Positions 38,366-54,931 of a DNA stretch of 64,000 bases are shown in pieces; the stretch's first letter is position 1, and every line of letters starts with the position of its first letter. This DNA is from Lachnospiraceae bacterium (lineage in GTDB: Bacteria > Bacillota > Clostridia > Lachnospirales > Lachnospiraceae). The DNA lies in the NCBI GenBank assembly GCA_029225065.1, contig JAQXVT010000059.1, positions 1 to 64,000 of the forward strand, in the 5' to 3' direction. Under the pieces are notes generated by a model. The model was not told the origin of the DNA. It was given only the letters and a program-made list of their open reading frames with translations, and did not search any database. A program made the translations under genes and the position numbers.

Positions 38366-38959
38366 AACCTTCACTGCAAAAACTGCTTTCTGTTCCTTCC
38401 CATTGCCGTCATAGTCAGAAAAATGGATTTTAAAATCACCGGCAGTCTCCACTCCGATACAGGTCTGTGCTGTGCAGGTCGCGCCGACAGGCGTCTCCTG
38501 TGGATAGTCAACCACATCCCCCGGATACTCATATCCCATCTTTCCTGCAGCATCCACAATGCCATCATCTATCAAAAGATACAGTCCGTTCCAGCCATCC
38601 TGCTCATAGCCAAGATTCTCATACTCATAAGTAACAAAATACACCGCTGCCGGATTTTTATCGGAATATTCATTTCGCTCCTGCGTCTCTTCCACTGACA
38701 GAATGGTAAGCTTCCACTGTCCGTCAACAGTCCAGGTCTCTCCAATTCCATATTCATCCTTTGAGACAACGGAAGCTGCTTCCGTTTCTCCCGCGTTTAC
38801 CTCTTCCAGCTGTTTCTGAAGATCATCGATCGTCTGCTGCATCTCCACGATCTGCTCCTCCAGCTCCTGAATCCGGTCATCCTTCTCATCTGCAAATGCA
38901 GTCAGCGGAAATGCCGCACATACTGCTGCCAGTAAAACTGCTGTCATTTTCTGTTTCAT
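38351..38959 (-). CDS. Secreted coiled-coil protein with DUF5067/DUF4352-like domain
   Basis: Exported protein of 202 residues. Signal peptide residues 1-23 ending AFPLTAFA-DE; coiled coil about 25-55 (RIQELEEQIVEMQQTIDDLQKQLEE); then an Ig-like beta domain (GETWTVDGQWKLTILSVEETQERNEY) resembling DUF5067/DUF4352 domains of Gram-positive extracellular proteins. Its ATG overlaps the stop of the upstream hybrid histidine kinase (TAATG), so the two are translationally coupled, and it may be a sensory partner or an output of that kinase. AAGGAGG precedes the start. Confidence 0.8.
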   Translation of the reverse strand: MKQKMTAVLLAAVCAAFPLTAFADEKDDRIQELEEQIVEMQQTIDDLQKQLEEVNAGETEAASVVSKDEYGIGETWTVDGQWKLTILSVEETQERNEYSDKNPAAVYFVTYEYENLGYEQDGWNGLYLLIDDGIVDAAGKMGYEYPGDVVDYPQETPVGATCTAQTCIGVETAGDFKIHFSDYDGNGKEQKAVFAVKVSEEN

Positions 38960-41178
38960 TATTTTTCCTCCTTTTCAATTTTTCCACATTGCCGCAAAAT
39001 CTTTTGCACCGTTTCATCCAGCTTATCAGCCTCCAGAGGCTTCATCAGATGCGCATTCATGCCCGCTGTAAGGCTGTTTTCCACATCATCCTGAAATGCA
39101 TTCGCACTCATTGCGATAATCGGAAGCGATGCATCCTCCCGCTCCAGGGCGCGAATCTGTCTTGTTGCTTCCAGTCCATCCATTACCGGCATCATGATAT
39201 CCATAAAAATTATGGCATATTCTCCAAGGGCGGACTGCTTAAAGTGTTCCACTGCCTCACGCCCATTGCCGACTGTCTCCACGGTAAAGCCTTCCTTTTC
39301 CAGCAAAAATCTTGCGATTTCCGTATTAAGCTCATTGTCCTCCACAAGCAGAGCCTTTTTCCCGGACGGATCAATCCGCTCCTTTTTCTCTTTCCTTTCC
39401 CCGACCGGATTTGGATCAATTTCAAACGGAATCGTCACAACAAAAACAGATCCCTCATTTATCTTACTGGAAAGCTCTATTTTTCCTCCCATTCGCTCCG
39501 TCAGTTCCTTTACAATCGACAGCCCCAGTCCTGTTCCGGCATACGTTGTATTGGCAGTCCGACCCTCCTGTGCAAATGGTTCAAATGCTTTTTTCTGAAA
39601 TTCCGGACTCATTCCAATTCCCGTATCTGCACAGGTAAACTGGAACACTGCATATTTTTCATCCGATCTTAATTCCCGGCAGCTTACCGTAACAGATCCG
39701 TTTTTGCGATTGTATTTCACTGCATTTCCTGCAATATTCTGCAAAATCCGTTTTAAATGAACGACACTGCCGATCAGGTGATTGTGTTCAATATAAAGCT
39801 GCTCCCTGTCAATCCGGAAATGAATTCCATGCTCAATTGCCTGCAGCTCGGTCACTGTATTTGCCTCTACCAGTGTTTCTCTGAGCAGAAACGGTTTGCG
39901 CTCCAGCGTGATTGCTCCAGACTCCAGCTTATTCATATCAAGCACATCATTCACCAGTGAAAGCAGATAGCCCGATGCCTTCCACATTTTTTCCCTGCAT
40001 TCCTTCTGCTTTTCCAAATCCTCAGGATTATTTCCCGCAATCTCAAGCATCCCACGGATTCCATTGATCGGCGTACGGATATCGTGACTCATTCTGCGCA
40101 GAAAGCTTGTCTTAGCTGCACTTGCTACCCGTGCTTCCTCCACTGCATCCTTCAACTGCCGCTGATATTCAAGCTCCCGGCGCTTTTCATTGTCTACATC
40201 CCGCACAACAGCCACAACAGCCGACACCTGTTCTCCTCTTCGCTTCTGTTCCACAATCTCAAGCTTACACCATCTCTGACGAAAATCCAGGAAATAAAAG
40301 CTTACCATACCGTTTCTCTCCAGCCGCTTTTGCAGTGTCGTGAACTCAATCTCCTTTAGAAAGTCGGAACGAAATTCCGCTGCTACAAACTGCTGCTTGA
40401 TCATCAGAATTCCCTGACTGGCTGTAATATCCTGTGACAACACCGGTTCCATATAAGTCGGTGCCTGCAGCACCTCAAAGGTATCACAAACCAAATCCAC
40501 CTGAATCACAAGAATGCTCGTTTGTATCACCGTCTTATACATATCTGTATACAGCTTCCGACTGATATTCTGCCTCGTGTTTTTCTGCCCGATGCATATG
40601 CCAAGAATCAATGACAGTAAAACATTGACAGCATTCGTATAACAGATCTTCGGGGAAGCCAGACAAAAATCAATTCCCAGCATAATAACGTAAACACCTA
40701 ACCCCGAAATGATATTGTCCCTTGGATATGCATTGTACATCGATGTCAGAAGCAGCACTACCAGACAAAGCAACGGTCCCGGTACCTCAGGATGCAAAAC
40801 AATATCATGCCAGATCACGACTGCACACCAGGTCAGATTGAAAAGTGCCGTAAGACAGCGAGACATCCGCACCGTCCTGTGCTTTCCGTTTTCTTTTTCA
40901 AGAACCAGCTGAATCCATACTATACAAAAAACAACCGCAGGAAATGGCAGCAGCTCTCTCCATGTACTTCCACCGAGCCACATGACCACCACAAACAGCA
41001 GCAGAGTCGGATAACTGATCTTGCAATATCCTTTCAACGTCTCCAGATTATCAAATGCAAACTCCGCGGCATATTCCCCCGCTGCACTGTACTGTGCGAG
41101 CTCCTCTTCTTCCAGACCAAGTGCAAACCACCTGCGAACACTGCCGCTTATTTTTCTCAAAATTTCCGTTTTTCTCAT
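38959..41178 (-). CDS. Hybrid sensor histidine kinase / response regulator
   Basis: Membrane kinase of 739 residues. About six N-terminal membrane helices (55-205) are followed by a PAS-like region (about 225-335), a HisKA domain with phospho-accepting His365 (MSHDIRTPINGIRGM), a HATPase_c domain (NAVKYNRKNGSV; DTGIGMS; GTGLGLSIVKELTERMGG) and a C-terminal receiver with Asp660 in FMDIMMPVMDG. There is no DNA-binding output domain, so the final target must be a separate phosphotransfer protein or response regulator, not in this window. Start ATG 41178 with GGGAG. Coupled to the secreted protein downstream. Confidence 0.92.
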   Translation of the reverse strand: MRKTEILRKISGSVRRWFALGLEEEELAQYSAAGEYAAEFAFDNLETLKGYCKISYPTLLLFVVVMWLGGSTWRELLPFPAVVFCIVWIQLVLEKENGKHRTVRMSRCLTALFNLTWCAVVIWHDIVLHPEVPGPLLCLVVLLLTSMYNAYPRDNIISGLGVYVIMLGIDFCLASPKICYTNAVNVLLSLILGICIGQKNTRQNISRKLYTDMYKTVIQTSILVIQVDLVCDTFEVLQAPTYMEPVLSQDITASQGILMIKQQFVAAEFRSDFLKEIEFTTLQKRLERNGMVSFYFLDFRQRWCKLEIVEQKRRGEQVSAVVAVVRDVDNEKRRELEYQRQLKDAVEEARVASAAKTSFLRRMSHDIRTPINGIRGMLEIAGNNPEDLEKQKECREKMWKASGYLLSLVNDVLDMNKLESGAITLERKPFLLRETLVEANTVTELQAIEHGIHFRIDREQLYIEHNHLIGSVVHLKRILQNIAGNAVKYNRKNGSVTVSCRELRSDEKYAVFQFTCADTGIGMSPEFQKKAFEPFAQEGRTANTTYAGTGLGLSIVKELTERMGGKIELSSKINEGSVFVVTIPFEIDPNPVGERKEKKERIDPSGKKALLVEDNELNTEIARFLLEKEGFTVETVGNGREAVEHFKQSALGEYAIIFMDIMMPVMDGLEATRQIRALEREDASLPIIAMSANAFQDDVENSLTAGMNAHLMKPLEADKLDETVQKILRQCGKIEKEEK

Positions 41179-41196
41179 CCCTTCTCCCAAATCGTG

Positions 41197-41361: not shown

Positions 41362-41413
41362 AATCCAATACATAACAACGAACACATCGTACTTGAAAAG
41401 GAGGAGCCTTACT

Positions 41414-41977
41414 ATGGAGGAAATCAAAAAAATTCTTGCCTACAACAAACAATTTGTCGAAGAAAAACGTTACGAACAGTACAGTGCCGACAAATTTCCA
41501 AACAAGAAGCTGGCAATCGTGACCTGTATGGATACGCGGCTTGTGGAACTGCTTCCGGCAGCACTCGGTCTGAAAAACGGAGACGTCAAGATGATTAAAA
41601 ATGCCGGCGGTGTTGTATCAAGCCCGTTTGGAAGCGTGATCCGCAGTCTGCTCGTCGCAATCATTGAACTTGGCGTGACAGATGTCATGGTAATCGGACA
41701 CACAGACTGTGGCGTGCAGCACATTGACAGCGAGATGATGATCCATCACATGAAGGAACGCGGAATTACACAGGAATCGATTGATCTGATGAAATACTGC
41801 GGCATTGATTTTGAGAAATGGCTTGCAGGCTTTGATACTGTAGAGGATTCCGTGCGTGAGACAGTCGATACGATCCGCAACCACCCGCTGATTCCAAAGG
41901 ACATCAATATTTTCGGCTATGTGATCGACACACAGACCGGTGAGCTCTATCCTGTCTGTGGTCCGAGTCTCGACTAA
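41414..41977 (+). CDS. Beta-carbonic anhydrase
   Basis: Zinc enzyme of 187 residues that interconverts CO2 and bicarbonate. The zinc ligands are Cys38 (VTCMDTR), His96 and Cys99 (IGHTDCG), with the Asp40/Arg42 catalytic dyad. It is a short, class-D-like (type II) beta-CA typical of Firmicutes. Start ATG 41414 with AAGGAGG 11 bases upstream. Monocistronic with its own promoter; no clear terminator follows. Supplies bicarbonate for carboxylations in a CO2-requiring anaerobe (inference). Confidence 0.92.
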   Translation: MEEIKKILAYNKQFVEEKRYEQYSADKFPNKKLAIVTCMDTRLVELLPAALGLKNGDVKMIKNAGGVVSSPFGSVIRSLLVAIIELGVTDVMVIGHTDCGVQHIDSEMMIHHMKERGITQESIDLMKYCGIDFEKWLAGFDTVEDSVRETVDTIRNHPLIPKDINIFGYVIDTQTGELYPVCGPSLD

Positions 41978-43211: not shown

Positions 43212-43535
43212 TCAGCTCTGCTCCGGCTTCCTCACCGGCACAAATTTTGCCCGGTTCATCAGCGGATGCGACAGTTTGATTGCGCCAGGCTTCGGACATA
43301 CCATGACGCAAGCGCCGCAGTAGTAACACTCACCAGGATACATCACAATCGGATGCTTTCCCTTCTCCGGCGACGGAATCAGGATATCGCACTGACATAC
43401 CGACGCACAGCGGTTGCAGCCGATGCACAGACTGTCATCGTATTTGAGCGGCATCGTACTGCACGGCACCGGTTCAACCGTAAAATCGATTCCGAGATTT
43501 TCTGTTCCTTTTGTCGTATCTTCCATCTTACTCAT
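43212..43535 (-). CDS. 2x[4Fe-4S] ferredoxin-type subunit (AprB-like)
   Basis: Protein of 107 residues with two cluster motifs: CIGCNRCASVC near residue 35 and CYYCGACVMVCP near residue 68. The first group and the spacing resemble AprB, the electron-transfer partner of AprA. It starts 8 bases inside the end of the flavoprotein gene (ATG 43535, AGGAGG upstream), so the two are made together and presumably form a complex passing electrons between a cellular ferredoxin and the FAD subunit. It lacks the C-terminal tail that wraps AprA in true APS reductases. It is the last gene of the long operon. Confidence 0.88.
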   Translation of the reverse strand: MSKMEDTTKGTENLGIDFTVEPVPCSTMPLKYDDSLCIGCNRCASVCQCDILIPSPEKGKHPIVMYPGECYYCGACVMVCPKPGAIKLSHPLMNRAKFVPVRKPEQS

Positions 43536-45615
43536 GCTCCGGCGCCTCCTCTCCTGCACCCTTCAGTTTCGAACTCGTACCGGCTTCTGCGTGAGCCTCT
43601 GCTTTCTTTTCCGCACGCACAGCATCCGTGTTCTCTCCCGCATGATATTTCTTCACTGCATACTGTTCGATGTAGTCCATATTTCGTTTCTCATACTCGG
43701 TCTGCAGATCACCGAAATAGTCAAGCGGCACGATGCGTGTCACAGCCTCGCCGTTTTCCTGATGGATCAGGATATGATGGCGGTCGCGCTCCGGATCCAT
43801 CTCCGTGTAATCGCTGCGCTTGAAGAACAGCGGTGCGGAGCTTGATTTTCTTGCCAGACTTGCATGAAGGACAAGCTGAGATACCGTCAGGATATCAAGC
43901 ACCTCGTGAATCCGCATCAGGTCATGCGGGTTGGAAGCCGTCAGTTTCGGAACAATCTCCGTCTCAAAGCTCTTTAAAAGATCGAGTCCTTCCAGAAGCA
44001 GCGCGTCGCACTTTACACCGCCACAGTAATTCTGCATCGCCTTGGAAATCGCCATATTCAGCTCCTTCCAGGACATACCGTCCTCTTTGTCTACGTAAAG
44101 CGGTGCATACACCCTCTGCTTTTCTGCTTCTACATCCGCGCGGTCTACCTCGCCGAGCGAAACTGTCCGTGCGTAATCCGCCGCTTTTCTGCCTGCATAA
44201 TAGCCGGTCGCACAGGCGAAGCCTGCGCAGTCCGACGCGTAAACCTGATCGCCTGCCGCATAAATTCCGTCAATATTTGTCTTCATATCCCAGTCATGCA
44301 TCACACCGCCCGGTGCCCCGAAGAACTGGCGCTCCTGCTCCAGGAAGTTCGCAGACTGCCAGCCTGTACCATAGCTCTGCAGCATATGCTTTTCCGGATC
44401 GAAGCCGCGCTCCGTATAATTCTGGTAGATCGGAATCTTCGTCTTTGCCTCTTCCCCGACCATCATGCCCCAGATGACCTTCCGCTCCGCCTCCGGCATC
44501 CGGCTTAAATCCGCATAAAATGGAAGCTGGTAGCCGCGCTTCATCAGCTCCTCAAAATTCAACGTTTCCGGTCCGCGGTACTCGTATTTCGGCTCGTCAA
44601 TGACGCCGCCCTTCAAGAAAAACTTCTGACCCGGCGCCGGATAATACCGCTCGGACACCGTTTTCAGTTCTCTTCCGTCTCGGTCCACGTACGGAATCTC
44701 CACGCCGCGCGCATCGACCATCGTCGCTGCATACCATGTGTTGTGATTGTTTCCTGCACCGTACGGCGGGAAGCTGCGTCCTGCCGCGGAAAATTCCGCC
44801 CGCACTGACTTTTCCATCATCGTAAATTCGATGCCGGCACGCCAGCCCATCGCATGGCCGCTTCCGATACTCTGCATCGGCCGGAACTCACAAAGTCCGG
44901 TCGTATCCGGGTTGAACAGCCAGACACGTGCCGGGCGCGACATCGTCAGAATCGTGGATTTTGCACGGAAAATGCAGAATTTTCCTGTGTGGACGTTCAT
45001 GCCCATCGCACCGATTCCGCGTTTTTTCAGGCTTCCGTCTGCCTCAGACTTCTGCTCCACCAGAAGCGCCGTCGCCTCTGTCCGGTCATACAGCTTTACG
45101 CCGAGCCGCTTCAATTCTTTTACAAGCGCCGGTTTGAACGTCGAACCCCAGACGCGGATGGTGTAGCGGTTTTTGTAATCGTACGCAAACATCAGCTTCG
45201 TCTCGTCATCCCGGAACTCTGCTCCGGCAAACTCATCGTCCGTATCGCGTACCTTGCCGCCGAATGATTCCAGATCAAGCAGACGGTCATAACCCTCACG
45301 GCATTCAATATAATGCGCGATGCCGTTGCTGTACCAGTCCTGCTCGTTCACGTACGCGCTCGCAATCTCCTCCGGTGTCACCTGACAGCACGGATTCGTA
45401 CAGGCGGACTCCCAGTGATCAAAACCGGTTCCGCCGGAGCCGCTGCGCTCTGCCGCTCCCTTTTCCACCAGTGTTACCGATAAGCCGCTGCGCGCCGCCG
45501 CGATTGCGGCAAAACAGCCCGCCAGACCGCCGCCAAGAACGAGGACATCGCTCTCGATGACCTCCTCCTGACCGGCCTCATTCGGGTACGGCCATGTATA
45601 TTTTGTCTCTTCCAT
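43528..45615 (-). CDS. FAD-dependent oxidoreductase, AprA/fumarate reductase flavoprotein family
   Basis: Flavoprotein of 695 residues. N-terminal FAD-binding motif DVLVLGGGLAGCFAA (residues 23-37), the second flavin motif TNIDGIYAAGDQVY and a helical C-terminal domain are those of the succinate dehydrogenase/fumarate reductase/AprA superfamily. No Sec or Tat signal, so cytoplasmic. Residues FDHWESACTNPCCQ near 65-78 are a cysteine-rich feature I do not know from fumarate reductases. No sat or sulfate genes adjoin it, which argues against a true APS reductase. The context (peptide importer, amidohydrolase, peptidase) suggests an organic substrate or acceptor. Start ATG 45615, AAGGAG. Confidence 0.87.
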   Translation of the reverse strand: MEETKYTWPYPNEAGQEEVIESDVLVLGGGLAGCFAAIAAARSGLSVTLVEKGAAERSGSGGTGFDHWESACTNPCCQVTPEEIASAYVNEQDWYSNGIAHYIECREGYDRLLDLESFGGKVRDTDDEFAGAEFRDDETKLMFAYDYKNRYTIRVWGSTFKPALVKELKRLGVKLYDRTEATALLVEQKSEADGSLKKRGIGAMGMNVHTGKFCIFRAKSTILTMSRPARVWLFNPDTTGLCEFRPMQSIGSGHAMGWRAGIEFTMMEKSVRAEFSAAGRSFPPYGAGNNHNTWYAATMVDARGVEIPYVDRDGRELKTVSERYYPAPGQKFFLKGGVIDEPKYEYRGPETLNFEELMKRGYQLPFYADLSRMPEAERKVIWGMMVGEEAKTKIPIYQNYTERGFDPEKHMLQSYGTGWQSANFLEQERQFFGAPGGVMHDWDMKTNIDGIYAAGDQVYASDCAGFACATGYYAGRKAADYARTVSLGEVDRADVEAEKQRVYAPLYVDKEDGMSWKELNMAISKAMQNYCGGVKCDALLLEGLDLLKSFETEIVPKLTASNPHDLMRIHEVLDILTVSQLVLHASLARKSSSAPLFFKRSDYTEMDPERDRHHILIHQENGEAVTRIVPLDYFGDLQTEYEKRNMDYIEQYAVKKYHAGENTDAVRAEKKAEAHAEAGTSSKLKGAGEEAPEHE

Positions 45616-45777
45616 TATTGTTCTCCTTGTTTCCACTTCATAACGAAACACAAACAGAGTCTCCCTACCAGCTGTTTCTTCCCTTATATCAGCTAAGACT
45701 GCTGTTTTCTCTTTATCGGATGCTGCCGCTTTCTTTCTATCACTTCTCCCCTTGCAAGTGACAGTTTCGACCATTCA

Positions 45778-46755
45778 TCACAACTCCAGCTCCTCTGCAT
45801 ACGGACACGCCGTATAATGTCCCGGCCGCATCTCCCGCAGTTCCATGCTGCAGCTCCTGCATTCCTCTTTCGCATACGGGCAGCGTGCCGCAAAACGGCA
45901 GCCCGGCTTCGGATTGATCGGGCTTGTGACCTCGCCTTGCAGCAGTTCTCTGCGCTTATGGCAGGATTCAATGCTCGGAATCGGGATTGCGTTGAGCAGC
46001 GCCCTTGTGTACGGATGCTGCGGATGCTCAAAAATTTCGTCTGCCGGAGCATACTCCACGCATTTTCCAAGATACATGACCATGATCTCATCGGAAATGT
46101 GTTTTACGACAGAAAGGTCATGCGTGATAAAGATATACGTCAGATTCCGGTCCTCCTGCAGATCCATCAGAAGATTCAGGATCTGTGCCTGAATCGATAC
46201 GTCAAGCGCCGATACCGGCTCGTCACAGACGACAAACTCCGGATTGAGAATCAGCGTGCGCGCGATTCCGATTCGCTGCCGCCGGCCGCCGTCCAGCTCA
46301 TGCGGGTACGCCGTTGCAAGGCGCGGTGCCAGTCCGACGATCTCCATGATCTCATCCACACGATCATCGATTTCCTGTCTCTTTTTGCACAGCTTGTTGA
46401 CAATTAACGGCTCTGCAATCAGCTGCCGGACTGTCATTCGTCCGTTCAGGCTCGAATACGGGTCCTGAAAAATCATCTGCATTTTCGGGCGCACAGCCCT
46501 AATCTGCTTTTTTCCAAGCTTCGCAATGTCCGTTCCCTGAAACAGGATTTCTCCTGACGTCGGCTCATTTAAGCACAGCAGCGTCCGTCCAAGCGTCGAT
46601 TTTCCGCATCCGGACTCGCCTACCACGCCGAGGGTCTTTCCTCTCGGAATCCGAAAGCTCACATCATCCACCGCATGCAGCATGCCGCCCGGTGTCTTGA
46701 AATATTTTTTGAGGTTTTTCACCTCAAGAAGTGTCTCGCTTTTTTTATTTTCCAT
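45778..46755 (-). CDS. Oligopeptide-type ABC transporter ATP-binding protein (OppF/DppF-like)
   Basis: ATPase of 325 residues. Walker A GESGCGKST, Walker B FVVCDEPVSALD and the C-terminal Opp/Dpp domain with cysteines (CRFAARCPYAKEECRSC) are visible. The signature is LDGGRRQRIGIAR instead of LSGGQxQR, a variant seen in some clostridial Opp ATPases. The start is probably ATG 46755 with AGGA; a GTG at 46770 is possible. It overlaps the OppD-like gene. It forms the ATPase pair of the peptide importer. Confidence 0.9.
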   Translation of the reverse strand: MENKKSETLLEVKNLKKYFKTPGGMLHAVDDVSFRIPRGKTLGVVGESGCGKSTLGRTLLCLNEPTSGEILFQGTDIAKLGKKQIRAVRPKMQMIFQDPYSSLNGRMTVRQLIAEPLIVNKLCKKRQEIDDRVDEIMEIVGLAPRLATAYPHELDGGRRQRIGIARTLILNPEFVVCDEPVSALDVSIQAQILNLLMDLQEDRNLTYIFITHDLSVVKHISDEIMVMYLGKCVEYAPADEIFEHPQHPYTRALLNAIPIPSIESCHKRRELLQGEVTSPINPKPGCRFAARCPYAKEECRSCSMELREMRPGHYTACPYAEELEL

Positions 46756-47749
46756 CAATCCTGTTTCCACCCTTTCCGGCCAGATGGCATCTCACAAGAT
46801 GACCGTCCTTTTCCCATGTCTGCGGTTTCTGTTTCCGGCACTGCTCTGTGCAGTGTTTGCACCGCGGCGCAAAGCTGCAGCCCTCCGGAAGATCGGAAGG
46901 ATCCGGCATCAGGCCCTCGATCGGATGCAGACGTCTCGCATTTTCCTTCAGATTCGGAATGGAACCAAACAGTCCGACCGTATACGGATGGTGCTCATCC
47001 CCGGTAAAAATCTGCTCCAGTGTGCCGTATTCCACGATCTCACCGGCATACATGATTCCGACCTTGTCGCACGTCTCCGCAACAACACCGAGGTCATGTG
47101 TAATCATAATCACGGACGTGCCGTATTTTCTCTGCAGATCACAGATGATTGAAAGGATCTGCGCCTGAATCGTCACATCAAGCGCCGTCGTCGGCTCATC
47201 CGCGATCAGCAGCTGCGGGTTACAGACAAGTGCCATCGCGATGACAACTCTCTGACGCATGCCTCCGGAAAACTGATACGGGTACTCCCTGCCTCTTTCT
47301 TTTGGGATACCGACAAGCTCCAGTGTCTCGCCGACTTTCTGCTCAATCTCCTTCGAGGACATCTCGCTGCTGTGGTGCAGGTAAAGTGCCTCCCCGATCT
47401 GCTCACCGACCGTGAGCACCGGATTCAGTGCCGTCATCGGATCCTGAAAAATCATGGAAATACTCTGTCCTCTGACCCTTAGCATCTCATGCTCACTCAA
47501 ATCCAGCAGATTTTTTCCTTCAAATAATACCGTTCCACCGGTTACATGACCGGTGCGCTCCGGCAGCAGGCCAAGGATTCCAAGTGCCGTTGTCGTTTTT
47601 CCGGCTCCCGTCTCACCGACGAGTCCCAGCGTTTCGCCCGCACCGATGGAAAAGCTGATATCGTTGACCGCGTAGACCGTTTCCAGATCTGTCTTGTAGC
47701 AGATCGATAAATTTTCAATTTTTAATACTTCTTCTTTCGCTTCCATCAC
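46745..47749 (-). CDS. Oligopeptide-type ABC transporter ATP-binding protein (OppD/DppD-like)
   Basis: ATPase of 334 residues. Walker A GETGAGKTT, signature FSGGMRQRVVIAMALV, Walker B LLIADEPTTALDVT and the C-terminal cysteine domain (CSFAPRCKHCTEQCRKQ), which binds an Fe-S cluster in DppD-type proteins. It pairs with the downstream ATPase. The 7-base gap to the permease gene and the 11-base overlap with the next one show one transcript. Confidence 0.92.
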   Translation of the reverse strand: MMEAKEEVLKIENLSICYKTDLETVYAVNDISFSIGAGETLGLVGETGAGKTTTALGILGLLPERTGHVTGGTVLFEGKNLLDLSEHEMLRVRGQSISMIFQDPMTALNPVLTVGEQIGEALYLHHSSEMSSKEIEQKVGETLELVGIPKERGREYPYQFSGGMRQRVVIAMALVCNPQLLIADEPTTALDVTIQAQILSIICDLQRKYGTSVIMITHDLGVVAETCDKVGIMYAGEIVEYGTLEQIFTGDEHHPYTVGLFGSIPNLKENARRLHPIEGLMPDPSDLPEGCSFAPRCKHCTEQCRKQKPQTWEKDGHLVRCHLAGKGGNRIDGK

Positions 47750-47756
47750 AGCCTCC

Positions 47757-48656
47757 CTAGTCCTTCAGTTTCGGATCCAGCGCATCGGTCAATCCATCAC
47801 CGACCAGATTGAAGGCCAGTGAGGAGAGAATAATAAAGATGCCCGGAAATACCAGCATGTACGGTGCCGTAAACAGATACGTCTGTGCATTGGAAAGCAG
47901 CGCGCCCCACTCCGGAGACGGCGGCTGGATTCCCATGCCGATGAAGCTCAGTCCGGCTGCGGAAAGGATCATATCTGAAATTGACATTGTGGTGTTTACG
48001 ATGATTGGGCCCATCGCATTCGGCAGCACGTAGCGGAACAGGATACGCGGCGTCGATGTGCCGTACGACCTCGCGGCCTCCACATAGTCCTGCTCGGCCA
48101 CCGTCAGCACAAGCGAACGAATCAAGCGCACATTTCCCGGAATACAGGAAACAGTGATCGCGATAATCAGGTTGCGCAGGTTTGTGCCGAGTGCCGCCAC
48201 AACGGCCAGGGATAACAGGATCGGAGGCACGCACGCAAACACATCGATGATACGGCAGATCACATTGTCGACCACGCCGCCGAAATAGCCCGCGCTTGCT
48301 CCGAGGATCGCTCCGAATACGAGCGCCATCAGGCTGGTCGCCACTCCGATAAACAGTGAGAATCTGGAACCATGTACAACTCTGGCAAACAGGTCGCGGC
48401 CATATTCATCGGTTCCGAAAAAGTGTGCCAGACTCGGTCCCTGAAGACGGTCGGCGCCCACCTGCTCAATGCATTTCGAATACGGTACGATCAGGTCGGC
48501 AAATAAAGCAATGCCCAAAATAAAGATCAGAATCACAAGTCCGAGCACGGCAGCCTTGTTTTTGCGGTAACGCCGCCAGATCTCTTTTGCCTGCGAATTT
48601 TTCTTTCTTCCGCGCGCCGCACCAGCGCTGCGGAGCGTCTGCGTCGTCTCAGCCAC
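47757..48656 (-). CDS. Oligopeptide-type ABC transporter permease (OppC/DppC-like)
   Basis: Permease of 299 residues with an N-terminal cytoplasmic segment, six membrane helices and the loop EAARSYGTSTPRILFRYVLPNAMGPIIV (EAA motif). It belongs to the DppC/OppC N-terminal type. The start is GTG 48656, chosen because GGAGG lies exactly 8 bases upstream; ATG 48671 has only a distant AAGG. It overlaps the OppB-like gene by 8 bases. Confidence 0.9.
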   Translation of the reverse strand: MAETTQTLRSAGAARGRKKNSQAKEIWRRYRKNKAAVLGLVILIFILGIALFADLIVPYSKCIEQVGADRLQGPSLAHFFGTDEYGRDLFARVVHGSRFSLFIGVATSLMALVFGAILGASAGYFGGVVDNVICRIIDVFACVPPILLSLAVVAALGTNLRNLIIAITVSCIPGNVRLIRSLVLTVAEQDYVEAARSYGTSTPRILFRYVLPNAMGPIIVNTTMSISDMILSAAGLSFIGMGIQPPSPEWGALLSNAQTYLFTAPYMLVFPGIFIILSSLAFNLVGDGLTDALDPKLKD

Positions 48657-49599
48657 GGCTCTTTCCTCCATTCTGATATTTTGCCTTGATACGCGGGTCA
48701 ATAAATGCATACAGCACATCGACCAGCAGAATGACGAAACTGAACAGCACTGCAAGGAACAGCGTTGCCCCCATAACCATCGGAATGTCCTTCTGACGGA
48801 TTGCGGTCGTGATCAGCGTGCCCATGCCCGGCATCGCAAACACCGTCTCAGCGATGATTGCACCGCCAAGCGATGCACCGAAGCCTCCGCCAAGCGTCGT
48901 GACAACCGGAAGAAGCGCGTTGCGCAGCGCATGCTTCCAGATGATGCGTTTTTCGGATGCGCCCTTCGCCTTCGCCGTGCGGATGTACTCCTGACGGATC
49001 GTCTCCAGCATCGCCGAGCGCGTCAATCGCAGAAGTCCGGCCGCAGAAGTCAGTGAAACGGTCAGCGTCGGTAAAATAAAATGCTTCAATGAGCTTGCTC
49101 CAAAGGACGGCAGCCAACCGAGCTTCAGCGCAAACAGCAGAAGCAGCATCAGTCCGAACCAGAAGCCCGGGATCGATGCGAAGATCATCGCGACGACCAC
49201 ACAGACGTGATCCATCACGGAATACTGGCGCACTGCCGAAAAAATTCCGAGGGAAATTCCGATAATCGAGGAAACTGCCATCGATAAAATGGCAAGCATC
49301 AGCGTATTCGGGAAACGTGACATGATATCCGCCATGACCGGACCGCGGCTCTGATAAGAGGTGCCGAGGCTGAAATGAAAAATAATGTCACCGATATAAT
49401 TAAAAAACCGGATCAGAAACGGCTTGTCATAGCCAAATTCTGCATTCAGTGCGGCGATGTCTTCCGGCTTCGCCGTGATGCCGAGGATGATCGAACCAGG
49501 ATCACCGGGCGTCAGCGACAGGATGGTAAATACAAGAAATGCCACCCCGAGCAGCACCGGAATCATATATAAGATTCGTTTGATTACGTATTTTGTCAT
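48649..49599 (-). CDS. Oligopeptide-type ABC transporter permease (OppB/DppB-like)
   Basis: Permease of 316 residues with six membrane helices. N-terminal RILYMIPVLLGVAFLVFTILSLTPGDP is typical of DppB/NikB, and the EAA loop is EYIRTAKAKGASEKRIIWKHALRNALLP. It forms the translocation pore with the OppC-like protein. It follows the binding protein after 226 bases that include an intercistronic hairpin. RBS AAGGAG. Confidence 0.92.
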   Translation of the reverse strand: MTKYVIKRILYMIPVLLGVAFLVFTILSLTPGDPGSIILGITAKPEDIAALNAEFGYDKPFLIRFFNYIGDIIFHFSLGTSYQSRGPVMADIMSRFPNTLMLAILSMAVSSIIGISLGIFSAVRQYSVMDHVCVVVAMIFASIPGFWFGLMLLLLFALKLGWLPSFGASSLKHFILPTLTVSLTSAAGLLRLTRSAMLETIRQEYIRTAKAKGASEKRIIWKHALRNALLPVVTTLGGGFGASLGGAIIAETVFAMPGMGTLITTAIRQKDIPMVMGATLFLAVLFSFVILLVDVLYAFIDPRIKAKYQNGGKSRG

Positions 49600-49626
49600 C
49601 TAAGACGTACTCCTTCCTCATAACAG

Positions 49627-49662
49627 AAGGCGGAGATGCCGGATTTTCCCGGATCCCCGCCT
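49627..49662 (-). terminator. Intercistronic hairpin after the peptide-binding protein gene
   Basis: GGCGGGGATCCGG pairs with CCGGCATCTCCGCC around a short loop, without a T-run. It probably lowers downstream expression relative to the binding protein. Confidence 0.55.
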
Positions 49663-49825
49663 GCTGCACCAGAGCATTTTTGTAAAATACTCCGGCAGCT
49701 TATCTGTTGTTTTCATGAACGGAGGCTTCTTTTTGCTCCGTATCTTTTCGTTCCCGGACACATTTCGCGATTTCACGGACACTTACGCCCGTTTTCTGCC
49801 CGCTTTTTAGTCCGCTGATACTGAT

Positions 49826-51319
49826 TTACTCAGCCCAGGAGAAGTCGTACAGGTAGTAGTTTCCTTCCAGTACAAATTCCGGACAGGTCAGATCGCTGTT
49901 GTATGCGTACAGTGTCATCGGGTTGCACATTACAGCGTAGATTGCCTCGTCCTGTGCTTTTGTAAAGATCTCGTTGAACACTTCTGCTCTCTTGTCATTG
50001 TCCGTCTCGGTTCTTGCCTGCCCAAACAGCTTATCCATCTCTTCGTCGGAATATCTTGCGTTGTTTGCAATTCCGATGTAGTCAGAGGTAAATGCCATCT
50101 CCAGTGTCTGAGTGTCACCCTCCAGTGTCATGTTCAGAGCGGTGATTCCATAGCTTCCGTTCTGCAGATCGCTGATGTAGGAGTTGAACTCTTTTACAGA
50201 GATTGTTACATCAAGTCCGACTGCTTTGAGGTCATTCTGAATTACTGTTGCCAGATTAGAGTATTTCTCCGCTACCAGAATCTCACCCAGATCATACGGT
50301 GTCTCGATGCCGGCCTCTGCAAGCAGCTCCTTTGCTTTCTCCGGATCATACGTATACTGGAACTGGTCGTCCGAATAACCGAAACGCTCCTTTGCGCAGA
50401 TGTTTGAATTTACCTCGGCCTCGCCGTCATAGCACACTGCCACAAGGTTGTCACGGTCAATCGCATAGTTGATTGCCTGACGAACCCTTGCATCATCGAA
50501 CGGCTCCTTCTCTGTGTTCATTGCAATGTAGGAGAAGGAAGAGGTCGGTACTTCGGCGATTGTGATTGCCGGGTTTGCTTCCAGCTGCGGCTTCGTCGCG
50601 GAATCGATCTCTGCGAAATTTACCTCGCCGGTCTGCAGCGCAATTGCCTTTGTAGAAGAATCCGGAATCACCTCAAAGGTTACTTCCTTGATTTCCGGTG
50701 CTCCTCTGTAGTAATCCTCGTTTGCTTCCAGCTTGATATTGCTTCCCTTTGCGCGGCTGACAAATTTATACGGGCCGCTTCCAATCGGGTTATTTACAAA
50801 ATCATCCTCAGAGGACTCATAGTATGCCTTTGACGCAATCATCGGGGAACAGATGCCCTGCAGGAACGGAGAATACGGTGCATCCAGATGACATACCACG
50901 GTGTGCTCGTCTGTTGCCTCTACGCTGGAAAGCATCGAAATCTGAGATCCCTGATATTCAGATGCCTTGTACAGCTCAATGGAAAATACGACATCATCTG
51001 CCGTAACCGGTGTGCCGTCATGGAAGGTCACATCGTCTCTTAAATGGAACGTATAGTCCAGTCCGTCATCGCTGATCTCATAGCTCTCTGCGATACGCGG
51101 CTCCGGATCTTTCGTTCCATCCGGGCTGTAGTAAAGCAGGGTGTCGTAGATCTGGTTCAGTACGCCGAGCTCTACCGTAGTAGAAAAGTCTGTCGGATGA
51201 AGCGTATCCACATCAGCGTCCATCGCAACTACAATGTCCGTCTTGTCTGCTGCGAACGAGGTCATGGATACTGCCATGCAAAGGCATGCGGCAGCGAGTA
51301 ATGCAAATCTCTTTTTCAT
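49826..51319 (-). CDS. Oligopeptide/nickel-type ABC transporter substrate-binding protein
   Basis: Family 5 solute-binding protein of 497 residues. Signal peptide about 1-22 ending MTSFA-AD with no lipobox. The family signature AESYEISDDGLDYTFHLRDDVTFHDGTPVTADDVVFS and DDARVRQAINYAIDRDNLV is present. These proteins bind di- and oligopeptides, nickel complexes or glycosides; the cluster suggests a peptide-like compound. Start ATG 51319 with AAGGAGG. Upstream, the transcript contains a GC-rich hairpin (CTCCGCACA/TGTGCGGAG, 51381-51417). Confidence 0.92.
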   Translation of the reverse strand: MKKRFALLAAACLCMAVSMTSFAADKTDIVVAMDADVDTLHPTDFSTTVELGVLNQIYDTLLYYSPDGTKDPEPRIAESYEISDDGLDYTFHLRDDVTFHDGTPVTADDVVFSIELYKASEYQGSQISMLSSVEATDEHTVVCHLDAPYSPFLQGICSPMIASKAYYESSEDDFVNNPIGSGPYKFVSRAKGSNIKLEANEDYYRGAPEIKEVTFEVIPDSSTKAIALQTGEVNFAEIDSATKPQLEANPAITIAEVPTSSFSYIAMNTEKEPFDDARVRQAINYAIDRDNLVAVCYDGEAEVNSNICAKERFGYSDDQFQYTYDPEKAKELLAEAGIETPYDLGEILVAEKYSNLATVIQNDLKAVGLDVTISVKEFNSYISDLQNGSYGITALNMTLEGDTQTLEMAFTSDYIGIANNARYSDEEMDKLFGQARTETDNDKRAEVFNEIFTKAQDEAIYAVMCNPMTLYAYNSDLTCPEFVLEGNYYLYDFSWAE

Positions 51320-51520
51320 AATGTTTTCCTCCTTTTTTGTGTCGGCACGAAGTTTCGGCCAATCCTGTCCTTTATTTCCGCTCCGCACAGTTCTCACTGC
51401 GGTGGTTGTGTGCGGAGGTGTTGCTTTTTCTTGCGATAAAGCTTCTGTTGTTTATCTTTAGACATATTTAAAAAACCATTTTACCGATCTGCCTGAAGTA
51501 TAAATTGCAGCTCAGCATTG

Positions 51521-52783
51521 TCACATTTTCAGTGGAATAAACTCGATTTCCTCCTGCGTAAGTCTGCCTGCCGCTTTCAGAAATCCGTCCAGTGTCTCTT
51601 TATCCCAGACATTTTCTCCCTGGAATACCATGCGGATTTTTCGCACCGCTCCAACTGTCTCCAGTGGATTTTCCTCCAGTACAATCAGGTCTGAATCAAA
51701 TCCCGGAAGAATCTTTCCTTTCTGATCTGAGATACCGATATACTCTGCAGGCCGGCTTGTCGCCGCCTCAAGCGCCGCATACCCTGTCATGCCGTACGCC
51801 TCCACCAGACTCTCCAGTTCATCCGCAAGCGCAAATCCCGGAACCACGCCCGCATACGGGCAGTCCGTACCGGCCATCACCCTGTCGGAATACTCAAGAA
51901 ATGTCCTGCCACGGTCAATGATTGTCTGGAAGTCCGGCTTTACGCCAAGCTTGCGGTAATTCTCGCAGGTAACTTCATTTTCCTCTTCCCATCTTCTGCG
52001 GATGCACTCCGGCAGATCCTCAAAATGCTCCACCTCGGTCAGCTGCTTGCCGTTCCAGACGTAATCCGGAAGCGTCTTGCAGACCACGTGGGTCGGGCAG
52101 AACCACATGCCATGCTGTGCTGCGTAGGCGATATCCTCTTTTTCCCGCGGAAGCGAGCTCGTATGCTCACAGCAGGAATACCCTGCATCAATCAATGACT
52201 TATAATCGAGAATCTTCGTCATATGACCGCACGGCGGAAGCCCTTCCTCCACTGCTCTGCGCAGCAGATACTTGTACAGCTCCGGCTCCATCGACGGATA
52301 CGTCTTCAGCCACAGGAATCCGTATTTTTTCGTATAGGCGATGATATTCTCCGCATCTTCCTTCGAACGGATGATGATATTCGTGTTGTCCGGGATCGTC
52401 TCATCCTCTCCGTCTGCGATCGGTCCGCTGGAATAAATATATGGGCCTCTGCGCGTACCGGCAAGAATCTCATCCCGCCACTTTGCATGTCCGGCAAAGC
52501 CCTGCATGTTGCGGACCGAAGTCACGCCGCTTGCCAGAAAAAAGTCCCCCATGTAGCTCTCATCGTAATGCACATGGGAATCGATCATGCCCGGCATAAC
52601 CACACATCCTGAGAGATCGATCACATTTGCAGCTTCCGGGATCGCTTCTTTTCGATCTGAGATTTTAACAATCTTCCCGTTCTCGATCCACAGATCTGCG
52701 TCCTCTAAAACAGGGCCGTCATTCATCGTGAGCAGCTGTCCGTTTTTCAGGACTGTGAGGGCGGTTGTCTTTTTATTTTCCAT
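51521..52783 (-). CDS. Metal-dependent amidohydrolase (imidazolonepropionase/prolidase-like)
   Basis: TIM-barrel amidohydrolase of 420 residues. Metal ligands can be placed: HxH in DSHVHYDES, a likely carboxylated Lys in LWLKTYPS, His in CGHMTK and CCEHTSS, and Asp in MAGTDCPYAG. The sequence falls in the imidazolonepropionase-like/Xaa-Pro dipeptidase group, which cleaves cyclic amides or N-acyl and dipeptide bonds. No signal peptide, so cytoplasmic. Weak SD. It lies between the importer and the M42 peptidase; it is the enzyme most likely to define the pathway's substrate. Confidence 0.88.
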   Translation of the reverse strand: MENKKTTALTVLKNGQLLTMNDGPVLEDADLWIENGKIVKISDRKEAIPEAANVIDLSGCVVMPGMIDSHVHYDESYMGDFFLASGVTSVRNMQGFAGHAKWRDEILAGTRRGPYIYSSGPIADGEDETIPDNTNIIIRSKEDAENIIAYTKKYGFLWLKTYPSMEPELYKYLLRRAVEEGLPPCGHMTKILDYKSLIDAGYSCCEHTSSLPREKEDIAYAAQHGMWFCPTHVVCKTLPDYVWNGKQLTEVEHFEDLPECIRRRWEEENEVTCENYRKLGVKPDFQTIIDRGRTFLEYSDRVMAGTDCPYAGVVPGFALADELESLVEAYGMTGYAALEAATSRPAEYIGISDQKGKILPGFDSDLIVLEENPLETVGAVRKIRMVFQGENVWDKETLDGFLKAAGRLTQEEIEFIPLKM

Positions 52784-52852
52784 ATTTTTACTTCTTTCTC
52801 ATCACTGCATTTGATTTGACATATGCCTGATACTTTTTTCCTTTTCATTCAT

Positions 52853-52890
52853 AGAAGCGGATATTTACAATTCGCTTTGCGCATTTGAAA
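52853..52890 (+). repeat. Dispersed palindromic repeat, copy 1 of 2 between amidohydrolase and M42 genes
   Basis: TAGAAGCGGATATTTACAAT then TCGCTTTGCGCATTTGAA. Confidence 0.6.
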
Positions 52891-52909
52891 CATTGGACCA
52901 CTTATCTGC

Positions 52910-52953
52910 AGTAAAGTGGACATTCGCAATCCGCTTCGCGACCTGCGTTCAAG
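52910..52953 (+). repeat. Dispersed palindromic repeat, copy 2 of 2 between amidohydrolase and M42 genes
   Basis: AGTAAAGTGGACATTCGCAA then TCCGCTTCGCGACCTGCGTT followed by CAAGC; the best consensus for the long form with the GTTCAAGC tail. Confidence 0.75.
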
Positions 52954-53020
52954 CTACATTACGAATTTTTCATTTCACCGATAATCGAAAGCGCTCTGTC
53001 TGATAATAAAATTTTTTCAT

Positions 53021-54037
53021 TCAGCAGAACGTAAGCTCGCTCTTGCAGAATGCGTTCAGCAGATCCACGCCGCCGTCGATGTCCTCCTTCGAAGCCACCG
53101 CGCTCTGGCTGTGCGGATACCGTGTGACAACTACGACACCGCCGGTCCGTACACCGACACCAGAAAGGTTCATGCTCGATGCGTCTGTACCGCCCTTGTC
53201 GATAACCTCTCTCTGATATTTGATCTGCTCCTTCTCGCAGCAGCTTTCCATCAGTGCAACGACATCCTCATCGCAGACAACCGACGGATCGCAAATCTTT
53301 ACGCCGACACCGCCGCCGACTACATTGCTGCCCTCCAGGTCACACGGATAATCATGCGCCGGGGTGATATCAACTGCAATTCCGACATCCGGCTGAATCC
53401 GCGCAGCCGCTACCTTCGAACCGCGGCAGCCAAGCTCCTCCTGCACACCGAATACGTAATAAACATCGTTCGGCCAGGTGCCGTCGTTTTCCTTTAAGGA
53501 CTCAATCAGCTGATAGCAGCCGATGCGGTTGTCCAGTGTCTTTGCGCAGACACGGTCATTTGCCAGCTCCAGGAACTCTCCATAATATCCGCAGGCATCG
53601 CCGAGCTTTACGTATTTCTCCGCATCCTCCTTTGAGGTCGCTCCGATGTCAATGTACAGCTTGCCCGGATCATTCTTCGCTTCCTCGATCGGTCCGAGGC
53701 AGCCCATTACGCCGCTCACGCCATTGCGGAAACGAACTCTTGCATTGTATGCAGAACCGGTCCAGTTCCATCCCAGGTTGCAGACACGCAGGCGTCCGTC
53801 CGGCTCGATCTTCTTAACCATAAATCCGATCTCATCCATATGTGCCGCCAGCATGATCTTCTTTGCATTCGGACCGCCGACACCTTTTTTCAGTACGATC
53901 AGATTGCCGACCGCATCGGTAGTCATCTCATCTGCGTACGGTGCCACGATCTTCTCAATGTACTGCCGTACCGGTTTCTCATATCCAGCCACTCCCCAGA
54001 GCTGTGTCAGCTCGCGGAGCAGATTTAAATCTCTCAT
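53021..54037 (-). CDS. M42 family metallopeptidase (aminopeptidase/glucanase M42)
   Basis: Dinuclear metal aminopeptidase of 338 residues. Ligands and catalytic residues are visible: His/Asp in AAHMDEIGFMV, Asp in TLDNRIGC, the Glu pair in GVQEELGCRGSK, Asp in VDITPAHD and His in RYPHSQS. M42 enzymes form dodecameric, self-compartmentalised cytoplasmic aminopeptidases that trim short peptides. First gene of the long operon. Start ATG 54037 with AAAGGAG; 13 upstream codons are rejected. Divergent from the GntR regulator. Confidence 0.92.
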   Translation of the reverse strand: MRDLNLLRELTQLWGVAGYEKPVRQYIEKIVAPYADEMTTDAVGNLIVLKKGVGGPNAKKIMLAAHMDEIGFMVKKIEPDGRLRVCNLGWNWTGSAYNARVRFRNGVSGVMGCLGPIEEAKNDPGKLYIDIGATSKEDAEKYVKLGDACGYYGEFLELANDRVCAKTLDNRIGCYQLIESLKENDGTWPNDVYYVFGVQEELGCRGSKVAAARIQPDVGIAVDITPAHDYPCDLEGSNVVGGGVGVKICDPSVVCDEDVVALMESCCEKEQIKYQREVIDKGGTDASSMNLSGVGVRTGGVVVVTRYPHSQSAVASKEDIDGGVDLLNAFCKSELTFC

Positions 54038-54068
54038 TTTGGGTCGCTCCTTTGTATGTAATATAAAA

Positions 54069-54104
54069 TAGGGCAAGTACCGTTGTACTTCTTTGTACTT
54101 TGCC
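54069..54104 (-). other. Hairpin in the M42 mRNA leader
   Basis: GGGCAAAGTAC and GTACTTGCCC flank a 15-base loop with inner GTAC repeats; on the minus strand it is followed by TATTTTATATT. It lies between the promoter at 54129-54157 and the start codon, so it may attenuate the operon or act as a regulator site. Confidence 0.5.
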
Positions 54105-54128
54105 CCTTCAACGCTTTAAACTGACAAT

Positions 54129-54157
54129 ATTTTATCATCATTCCATGCAGATTGCAA
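54129..54157 (-). promoter_or_regulatory. Promoter of the M42/amidohydrolase/ABC/flavoprotein operon
   Basis: -35 TTGCAA (54152-54157), 17-base spacer, -10 TAAAAT (54129-54134) on the minus strand. Confidence 0.6.
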
Positions 54158-54169
54158 TAAACATTTTGC

Positions 54170-54181
54170 ATTTTGCAAAAT
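54170..54181. promoter_or_regulatory. Palindrome between divergent promoters, candidate GntR operator
   Basis: ATTTTGCAAAAT is a perfect 12-base palindrome, preceded by GCATTTTGC and ATTGCAAT, between the two divergent -35 elements. Its place suits control of both transcripts by the adjacent GntR protein. Confidence 0.4.
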
Positions 54182-54189
54182 CTTTTTTC

Positions 54190-54217
54190 TTGACATTTTG
54201 GAACGCATTTATACAAT
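54190..54217 (+). promoter_or_regulatory. Promoter of the gntR-type gene
   Basis: -35 TTGACA (54190-54195), 16-base spacer, -10 TACAAT (54212-54217). Confidence 0.65.
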
Positions 54218-54268
54218 AAATATAGTTATCTTGCCCGACTCGGTTAAAAAATAGATAAAGGAGTTCTT

Positions 54269-54931
54269 ATGGACCTGAACAAGACCACTCTTTCTGAACA
54301 AATTTACGCAATTCTCCGCAGTGATATCTTGACCGGCAAAATCCCGCTCGGAGAAAAGCTGACACTGAAAAATCTGAAAAACCGCTTTGAAGTCAGCTCC
54401 ACGCCGATCCGTGAAGCACTGACACGGCTTACAGAAGACGGACTGGCAGAGTATTATTCCAATGTCGGTGTCAACGTCATCTCCCTGTCCGAAAAAGATC
54501 TGATCGAACTGTATCAGTTCATGGGAGATCTCGACCGTCTTGCGATTCTCTACAGCGCTATGTGGCCGGATCAGGCCCAGATCTGCCGCGAGGCTGAGCT
54601 TGTCCTTGCAAAAACACAGCTGATTGAAGAAAAAAAAGAGCTCGATGAAACGGACATTCCTCTTTGGATCGAGTACTCCGACCGTTTTCATCTGCTCTTC
54701 TACGATTACTGCCAGAACAGCCGCCTGACCCACGCCGCAGAAAAGCTGCGCAGCCAGCTGACCATCTTTTCCAATCTCTACGAAACTCAGAGTGCTCCCC
54801 AGCACCGAATCAACGAGATGCACCACCGCATCTACGACGCCTACCGCACCGGCAATTATCAGACCGCCGGTGATCTGATGAAAGCACATCTGGAGGATTC
54901 ACTGAAGTATGCGCTGGAGCATCTGAAATAA
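54269..54931 (+). CDS. GntR family regulator with FCD domain
   Basis: Regulator of 220 residues. Winged HTH (LSEQIYAILRSDILTGKIPLGEKLTLKNLKNRFEVSSTPIREALTRLTEDGL, 7-60) and an all-helical FCD ligand domain (about 85-215) whose metal-binding Asp/His residues appear in DRFHLLFYD and MHHRIYDAYRTG. FCD regulators usually sense small organic acids. It is divergent from the M42-led operon and is its likely repressor. RBS AAAGGAG. Ends 9 bases from the convergent recQ gene. Confidence 0.9.
   Translation: MDLNKTTLSEQIYAILRSDILTGKIPLGEKLTLKNLKNRFEVSSTPIREALTRLTEDGLAEYYSNVGVNVISLSEKDLIELYQFMGDLDRLAILYSAMWPDQAQICREAELVLAKTQLIEEKKELDETDIPLWIEYSDRFHLLFYDYCQNSRLTHAAEKLRSQLTIFSNLYETQSAPQHRINEMHHRIYDAYRTGNYQTAGDLMKAHLEDSLKYALEHLK

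Follow-up and report, generated by a model that had tools for sequence, protein, structure and literature searches.

A flavoprotein–ferredoxin pair with exchangeable importers in a putative peptide-catabolism operon of Lachnospiraceae

Many flavoproteins of the AprA/FrdA-type fold in anaerobes are reductases. Described relatives include the adenylylsulfate (APS) reductase AprAB and the 3'-phosphoadenylylsulfate (PAPS) reductase of Methanothermococcus thermolithotrophicus (structure 8a8o), while L-aspartate oxidase is an amino-acid oxidase of the same fold and urocanate reductase-like enzymes are extracytosolic flavin reductases of gut bacteria. Here we analyze a locus at positions 43212 to 54931 of a 64,000-nucleotide stretch of contig JAQXVT010000059.1 from a Lachnospiraceae bacterium (assembly GCA_029225065.1; the whole stretch is called the window below), in which an AprAB-like flavoprotein and a ferredoxin are encoded with a peptide-type ATP-binding cassette importer, two predicted hydrolases and a divergent GntR regulator. 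The AprAB-like kind of flavoprotein is present here in a new form, of which the gene set, its recurrence, the fusion of the pair and a common motif are real. The constant core of these loci is the flavoprotein with the ferredoxin; the importer and the hydrolases are not part of every locus.

Relation to described flavoenzymes and layout of the locus

The flavoprotein shares with AprAB (1jnr, 2fja, 3gyx) a common fold and a dicluster ferredoxin partner. Its fold is that of AprA and PAPS reductase, which are also its best solved relatives by both sequence and fold, and its best family matches carry the names fumarate reductase or adenylyl-sulfate reductase; the solved matches of the ferredoxin include the beta subunit of PAPS reductase, among others. 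The score against the AprA model TIGR02061 is nevertheless 93 bits, with a cut-off of 641.75, and no AprA exceeds this cut-off anywhere in the window's genome. Sulfate adenylyltransferase (sat, TIGR00339) has no match in the same genome, which is 96% complete; five of 14 control genomes match this model. The AprB model is missing among the best 25 of 26 NCBIfam matches of the ferredoxin, no search having been aimed at AprB. Trp234 of AprA, which we take to be an active-site residue, aligns in a profile alignment with Met247 of the flavoprotein, a position that varies among relatives, and the capping region (residues 270-430, limits of our choosing) has no sequence match to PAPS reductase (8a8o) or to AprA (1jnr, 2fja, 3gyx). 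APS and PAPS reduction were rejected on these family cut-offs, genome content and residues, in agreement with the original prediction, which held APS reduction to be unlikely while recognizing an AprAB-like architecture and proposed the residue comparison.

The class of fumarate reductases was approached in the same way. His233, Arg288 and His356 of Escherichia coli FrdA are replaced by Tyr, Glu and Trp, Arg391 falls in a deletion, and the His45 that links flavin adenine dinucleotide (FAD) in FrdA is Cys or Ser; the catalytic residues H244, R290, H351 and R386 of aspartate oxidase correspond to Tyr, Glu, Trp and a deletion. The alignment is of low identity here, the Arg391 deletion and the lost FAD-linking His being its firmest points. 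An identity as fumarate reductase, succinate dehydrogenase or L-aspartate oxidase was rejected because the catalytic His and Arg residues are not kept. The extracytosolic flavin reductases of gut bacteria differ as well, since no FMN-binding domain is found among the Pfam matches of the flavoprotein and a ferredoxin partner is present here. The riboflavin-degradation cluster of Lachnospiraceae, given in the available part of its description as an aldolase, oxidoreductases and a riboflavin kinase (PMC12934955), consists of different genes and was set apart by that description rather than by sequence comparison. The literature searched, with subscription journals mostly outside it, holds no description of this gene set, which is in line with the original prediction, whose author knew of no described system with exactly these genes.

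All ten open reading frames (ORFs) that had been claimed, nine on the minus strand and a divergent GntR/FCD gene, were found between 43212 and 54931 with the named domains present:

43212-43535, minus strand: 2x[4Fe-4S] ferredoxin subunit, with two CxxCxxCxxxC motifs
43528-45615, minus strand: FAD subunit of AprA/PAPS-reductase fold, with FAD_binding_2 and Succ_DH_flav_C (Pfam/family matches)
45778-46770, minus strand: OppF/DppF-type ATPase (domain match)
46745-47749, minus strand: OppD/DppD-type ATPase (domain match)
47757-48671, minus strand: OppC-type permease (probable start from the ORF; longest ORF to 48755)
48649-49599, minus strand: OppB-type permease (domain match)
49826-51319, minus strand: SBP_bac_5 peptide-type binding protein (probable start; longest ORF to 51397)
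51521-52783, minus strand: amidohydrolase (Amidohydro_1), Xaa-Pro dipeptidase/arginine-carboxypeptidase-like (domain match)
53021-54037, minus strand: M42 metallo-aminopeptidase (Peptidase_M42; probable start; longest ORF to 54076)
54269-54931, plus strand: divergent GntR/FCD regulator (GntR and FCD domains, both over cut-off)

Comparison with relatives makes 45615 the likely start of the flavoprotein, versus 45774 for the longest ORF. With the likely starts, the ferredoxin and flavoprotein, OppF and OppD, and OppC and OppB genes overlap, as described in the original prediction, whereas its short gaps do not hold at four junctions of about 160-240 bp (flavoprotein-OppF, OppB-binding protein, binding protein-amidohydrolase and amidohydrolase-M42); these gaps are still compatible with one operon, less tight than first described. 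All five importer subunits (the binding protein, two permeases and two ATPases with oligo_HPY tails) exceed a Pfam cut-off, and none reaches an NCBIfam cut-off among the best 25 families per protein. By eye, no clear lipobox accompanies the signal peptide of the binding protein (49826-51319), in contrast to relatives such as those of loci L037, L048 and L099, and 3' of the operon lie a beta-carbonic-anhydrase-like gene (41393-41977) and a hybrid histidine kinase (38959-41190).

Both hydrolases appear catalytically intact, as judged by their residues. The M42 peptidase scores 253.6 bits with a cut-off of 23.2, and its metal ligands and catalytic Glu, the set H92, D195, E226, E227, D249 and H335 (numbered on the padded ORF), are kept in 96-100% of 27 aligned copies. 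The ligand set of a two-metal amidohydrolase is HxH, Lys, His, His and Asp; in the amidohydrolase H70, H72, K160, H187, H207 and D307 (padded numbering minus 5) are kept in nine of nine aligned copies. The amidohydrolase most resembles prolidase/arginine-carboxypeptidase-like proteins. None of its best 25 NCBIfam families is matched above the curated cut-off, the top one being Xaa-Pro dipeptidase NF051886 (95.8 bits, cut-off 500).

A constant pair, recurrent gene set and exchangeable importer

Relatives were taken from one flavoprotein scan of genome contigs with six window-derived peptides, 80 of 96 being kept (L032-L111), and together with the window these 81 loci were compared by tblastn. 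All nine genes are found in eight loci (the window, L034, L039, L044, L048, L060, L085 and L107), and 12 further loci have eight genes, the amidohydrolase missing; among the remaining loci are a number of short contigs. Other genomes share the set in the same order, with protein identities of about 50-90%, which places the arrangement beyond chance. Distant relatives keep the set rearranged: in Fusibacter paucivorans (L107) the permeases and ATPases diverge from flavoprotein, ferredoxin, M42, binding protein and amidohydrolase, and L134, from a genome of another family (G683) with a flavoprotein of 58-61% identity, has all nine genes and GntR arranged as in Fusibacter. In a separate sample of the phylum, the source of L134, seven of 398 genomes match the flavoprotein at E <= 1e-60 (own genome included). 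Of the 299 genomes sampled in the window's family, 13, again counting its own, hold a flavoprotein of at least 65% identity; the copy of G205 (contig C47, L014) is in several overlapping frame pieces and is either decayed or misassembled. The pair is also found in Eisenbergiella tayi, Hungatella effluvii and [Clostridium] citroniae. Flavoprotein homologues are therefore linked to the importer in other genomes, where the original prediction had seen an unlinked flavoprotein, or one with APS reductase residues and activity, as the outcome that would speak against a single pathway; such residues did not appear either. The view of these genes as one functional unit is supported by the conserved set, its rearrangement in distant relatives and a common predicted operator.

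In 80 of 81 loci no more than 3 kb separates the ferredoxin from the flavoprotein, and the remaining locus stops at a contig end. In four loci (L043, L046, L049 and L100) the two are a single in-frame ORF; L046 and L049 are sisters in the flavoprotein tree and L043 and L100 are placed elsewhere, so that fusion probably arose at least three times. Given this constant pairing and the natural fusions, we conclude with high confidence that the flavoprotein and the ferredoxin are subunits of one enzyme. The best conserved part of the flavoprotein is its own capping region. Separately, a Rieske/VanA_C oxygenase-like gene follows the pair in two related Clostridia (L109, 12350-13333, by Pfam; L110, 7526-8509, by membership of the same cluster).

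The importer varies around this core. According to neighbours within 9 kb, 29 of the 81 loci are labelled OppA (the window-type importer), eight OppB (a different peptide-type importer), 17 SSF symporter, three MFS, one APC and 23 none; some loci with the last label are short contigs, and MFS and APC were assigned from neighbourhood alone. One symporter locus (L061) has a different symporter, beyond its GntR gene. For the MFS gene that was tested, the top scores are to antiporter and efflux-type models, under their cut-offs, and the MFS label is therefore uninformative on import. A tree was built by a quick method from 78 flavoproteins and three outgroup rows (from L112, L113 and L115, on very long branches), after L094, L098 and L105 had been dropped as short or masked. 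It requires seven changes for the OppA label, of which well-supported branches force five, and 21 for all groups combined. Among loci with at least 8 kb on both sides, an M42 gene (>=50% identity) is nearby in 11 of 12 OppA, one of four OppB and the single MFS locus, and in none of the 10 SSF, eight 'none' and one APC loci. Delivery of a peptide by Opp and of the free compound by the symporter would fit this M42 pattern.

A common palindrome at the divergent regulator

The palindrome TTTTGCAAAA was found by k-mer counting in 27 of the 29 regions that separate a divergent GntR gene from its next named neighbour, the set being the loci among the 81 in which this region spans 60-700 bases. It stands before M42 in 10 regions, the symporter in six and the flavoprotein in 11, and 200 rounds of dinucleotide shuffling of the same regions gave a mean of 0.12 and a maximum of 2. 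The two regions that lack it belong to L038 (63 bases) and L089, and it is also missing at L104 and L107 (regulator 34% and 52%), both outside the 29. Throughout the 81 loci (1.37 Mb) there are 43 copies, of which 36, in 31 loci, lie within 145 bases of the match of the first named operon gene. Since the palindrome is kept across importer types, the same switch appears to be retained despite importer change where the regulator is adjacent. The typical operator motif of FCD-type regulators, TNGT-N2/3-ACNA, occurs in only three of the 29 regions. The predicted sites of the window are the following:

54129-54157, minus strand: promoter-like site of the nine-gene operon (9/12, consensus match only)
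54167-54181, no strand: predicted GntR operator TGCATTTTGCAAAAT, with one of the two divergent promoter-like sites on either side
54190-54217, plus strand: promoter-like site of the regulator (TTGACA-16-TACAAT, 11/12, consensus match only)

In the window's genome the exact 15-base site has a single copy, at this promoter, and one mismatched site lies elsewhere. Five of seven genomes searched have one exact copy each, four of these at the flavoprotein operon; the contig of the G202 copy is short, carries GntR and M42 and resembles the split 5' end of the operon. The promoter and terminator scans are consensus-based, and because 14 promoter sites were found with 10.1 expected (standard deviation 3.1), individual promoter sites are weak evidence.

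Proposed function and competing explanations

We put the chances at about even that the locus is an operon for peptide catabolism under local regulation, and that its flavoprotein:ferredoxin enzyme acts on a single conserved compound derived from a peptide, probably by reducing it as an electron sink. We infer import of a peptide-like compound, to which the gene families point, use of its hydrolysis products as substrate, a reducing direction and the role of electron sink. The importer would bring in a small peptide or amide conjugate, which the M42 peptidase and the amidohydrolase may cut; the original prediction of such import and hydrolysis is supported by the Opp importer, the conserved metal ligands of both hydrolases and further peptidase families found beside relatives (M20 and M14 in L095, M24 in L098, M29 and M20 in L104). 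A cytosolic FAD and 2[4Fe-4S] enzyme would then act on one particular released compound, as suggested by the conserved capping region together with the exchangeable importer. Electron exchange would link FAD to both clusters of the small subunit, in an AprA/PAPS reductase-like architecture with a different pocket. The most likely direction would be reduction with electrons of the cellular ferredoxin pool, as the original prediction proposed, the released compound being an acceptor for amino-acid or peptide fermentation, and our guess is that reduction is somewhat favoured over oxidation. The GntR protein would bind ATTTTGCAAAAT between the divergent promoters and may be released by the compound or its product.

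Genes near some relatives fit a ferredoxin economy without giving the redox direction. In L133 (4647-15258), a candidate locus for amino-acid fermentation, the flavoprotein shares 11 kb with a symporter gene in two frames, a butyrate kinase that exceeds its cut-off, and genes resembling phosphate butyryltransferase, an amino-acid dehydrogenase (356.5 bits against a cut-off of 600) and the alpha subunit of indolepyruvate:ferredoxin oxidoreductase (643.8 bits against a cut-off of 650.9). A partial match to RnfB, narrowly above its cut-off, is present in the window's genome. A selenium-dependent xanthine dehydrogenase stands beside two sister loci only, L059 (named) and L068 (same cluster, c65).

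Several observations weigh against the proposed peptide-derived substrate and local switch. Two of the scan peptides (IEFTMMEK and WGMMVGEE) border or sit in the capping region, so that the degree of its conservation is overstated, and the predicted model has confidence values (pLDDT) below 50 in parts of that region. No named transporter is present in 23 of the 81 loci, some of them short contigs, and since the symporter loci lack M42, delivery of a peptide can be dispensed with. At 34-49% identity, relatives carry TRAP-like transporters, a further peptide-type importer or no evident transporter; the wider family is therefore not tied to peptides. Butyrate kinase is near only five loci (L133 and four of the 80 fetched), two of them sisters. 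Among loci with at least 8 kb upstream, a GntR relative lies within 10 kb in 25 of 51 (13 of 20 OppA, five of 12 SSF, two of five OppB, five of 11 'none', none of two MFS and none of one APC). Of the seven genomes searched, G152 and G136 lack the exact 15-base site, and the same-genus locus of G152 (L034) has the nine genes with neither GntR nor motif within its stretch.

Paralogues of the pair at 34-38% identity in genomes of the window's family (L112-L115) suggest a wider family of transporter-linked flavoprotein-ferredoxin enzymes. By eye, TRAP-like transporters accompany them in L112, L113 and L115, and LysR-like regulators and/or NuoE/F/G-like (NADH-dehydrogenase-like) genes in L112-L114; a 4-hydroxyphenylacetate 3-hydroxylase-family (HpaB) protein is near the pair of L115.

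The most serious alternative, though in our view unlikely, is that the pair oxidizes the compound set free, such as an amino acid or an amine in the manner of L-aspartate oxidase, which has the same fold, and passes electrons to ferredoxin and on to hydrogenase, Rnf or other sinks; the loss of the four aspartate-oxidase residues and the many reductases of this fold in anaerobes argue against it. It could also be speculated that two unrelated modules, importer with hydrolases and redox pair, share an operon merely by descent in one clade, as the core pair is often without the window-type importer (the OppA label is missing from 52 of 81 loci) and 25 of the 28 OppA sequences of the tree fall in one 28-row set. 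We regard this as improbable given the complete but rearranged set in L107 and L134, the repeated importer change with at least five forced changes for OppA, and the common predicted operator before M42, symporter or flavoprotein.

A link to hydroxyproline or proline from collagen peptides, with the pair reducing the product of the trans-4-hydroxyproline dehydratase HypD, was examined because HypD lies, over cut-off, downstream in the Emergencia locus L061, and the close relative L056 holds a copy of 91% identity; the Xaa-Pro dipeptidase match of the amidohydrolase, under cut-off as it is, points the same way. The link was dropped, as HypD exceeds its cut-off in two of 13 genomes with the flavoprotein (three if the HypD-like pieces of G205 are counted together) against five of 31 without it, these 31 being picked for high completeness, and none is over cut-off in the window's genome, which leaves this explanation very improbable. 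Even less credible is a genuine APS or PAPS reductase placed beside a peptide operon by accident: the closest solved relatives and the beta-subunit match of the ferredoxin speak for it, and the low AprA score, the lack of AprA over cut-off and of sat, and the variable Met247 in place of Trp234 speak against it.

We return to the proposed reductase. Tentatively, and with less confidence than for the operon as such, it may be a ferredoxin-dependent enzyme with a specific peptide-derived terminal acceptor, that is, a new Stickland-like sink in gut Lachnospiraceae and other Bacillota with interchangeable imports and a GntR switch. Thanks to the conserved operator, the natural fusions and the exchangeable importer, both its substrate and its redox direction are open to direct tests. 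With 13 of 299 family genomes holding it, the pair is not rare, and its family names are fumarate or adenylyl-sulfate reductase despite the missing reaction residues where these were tested. The answer could assign an enzyme to a redox reaction of gut peptide fermentation that is without one.

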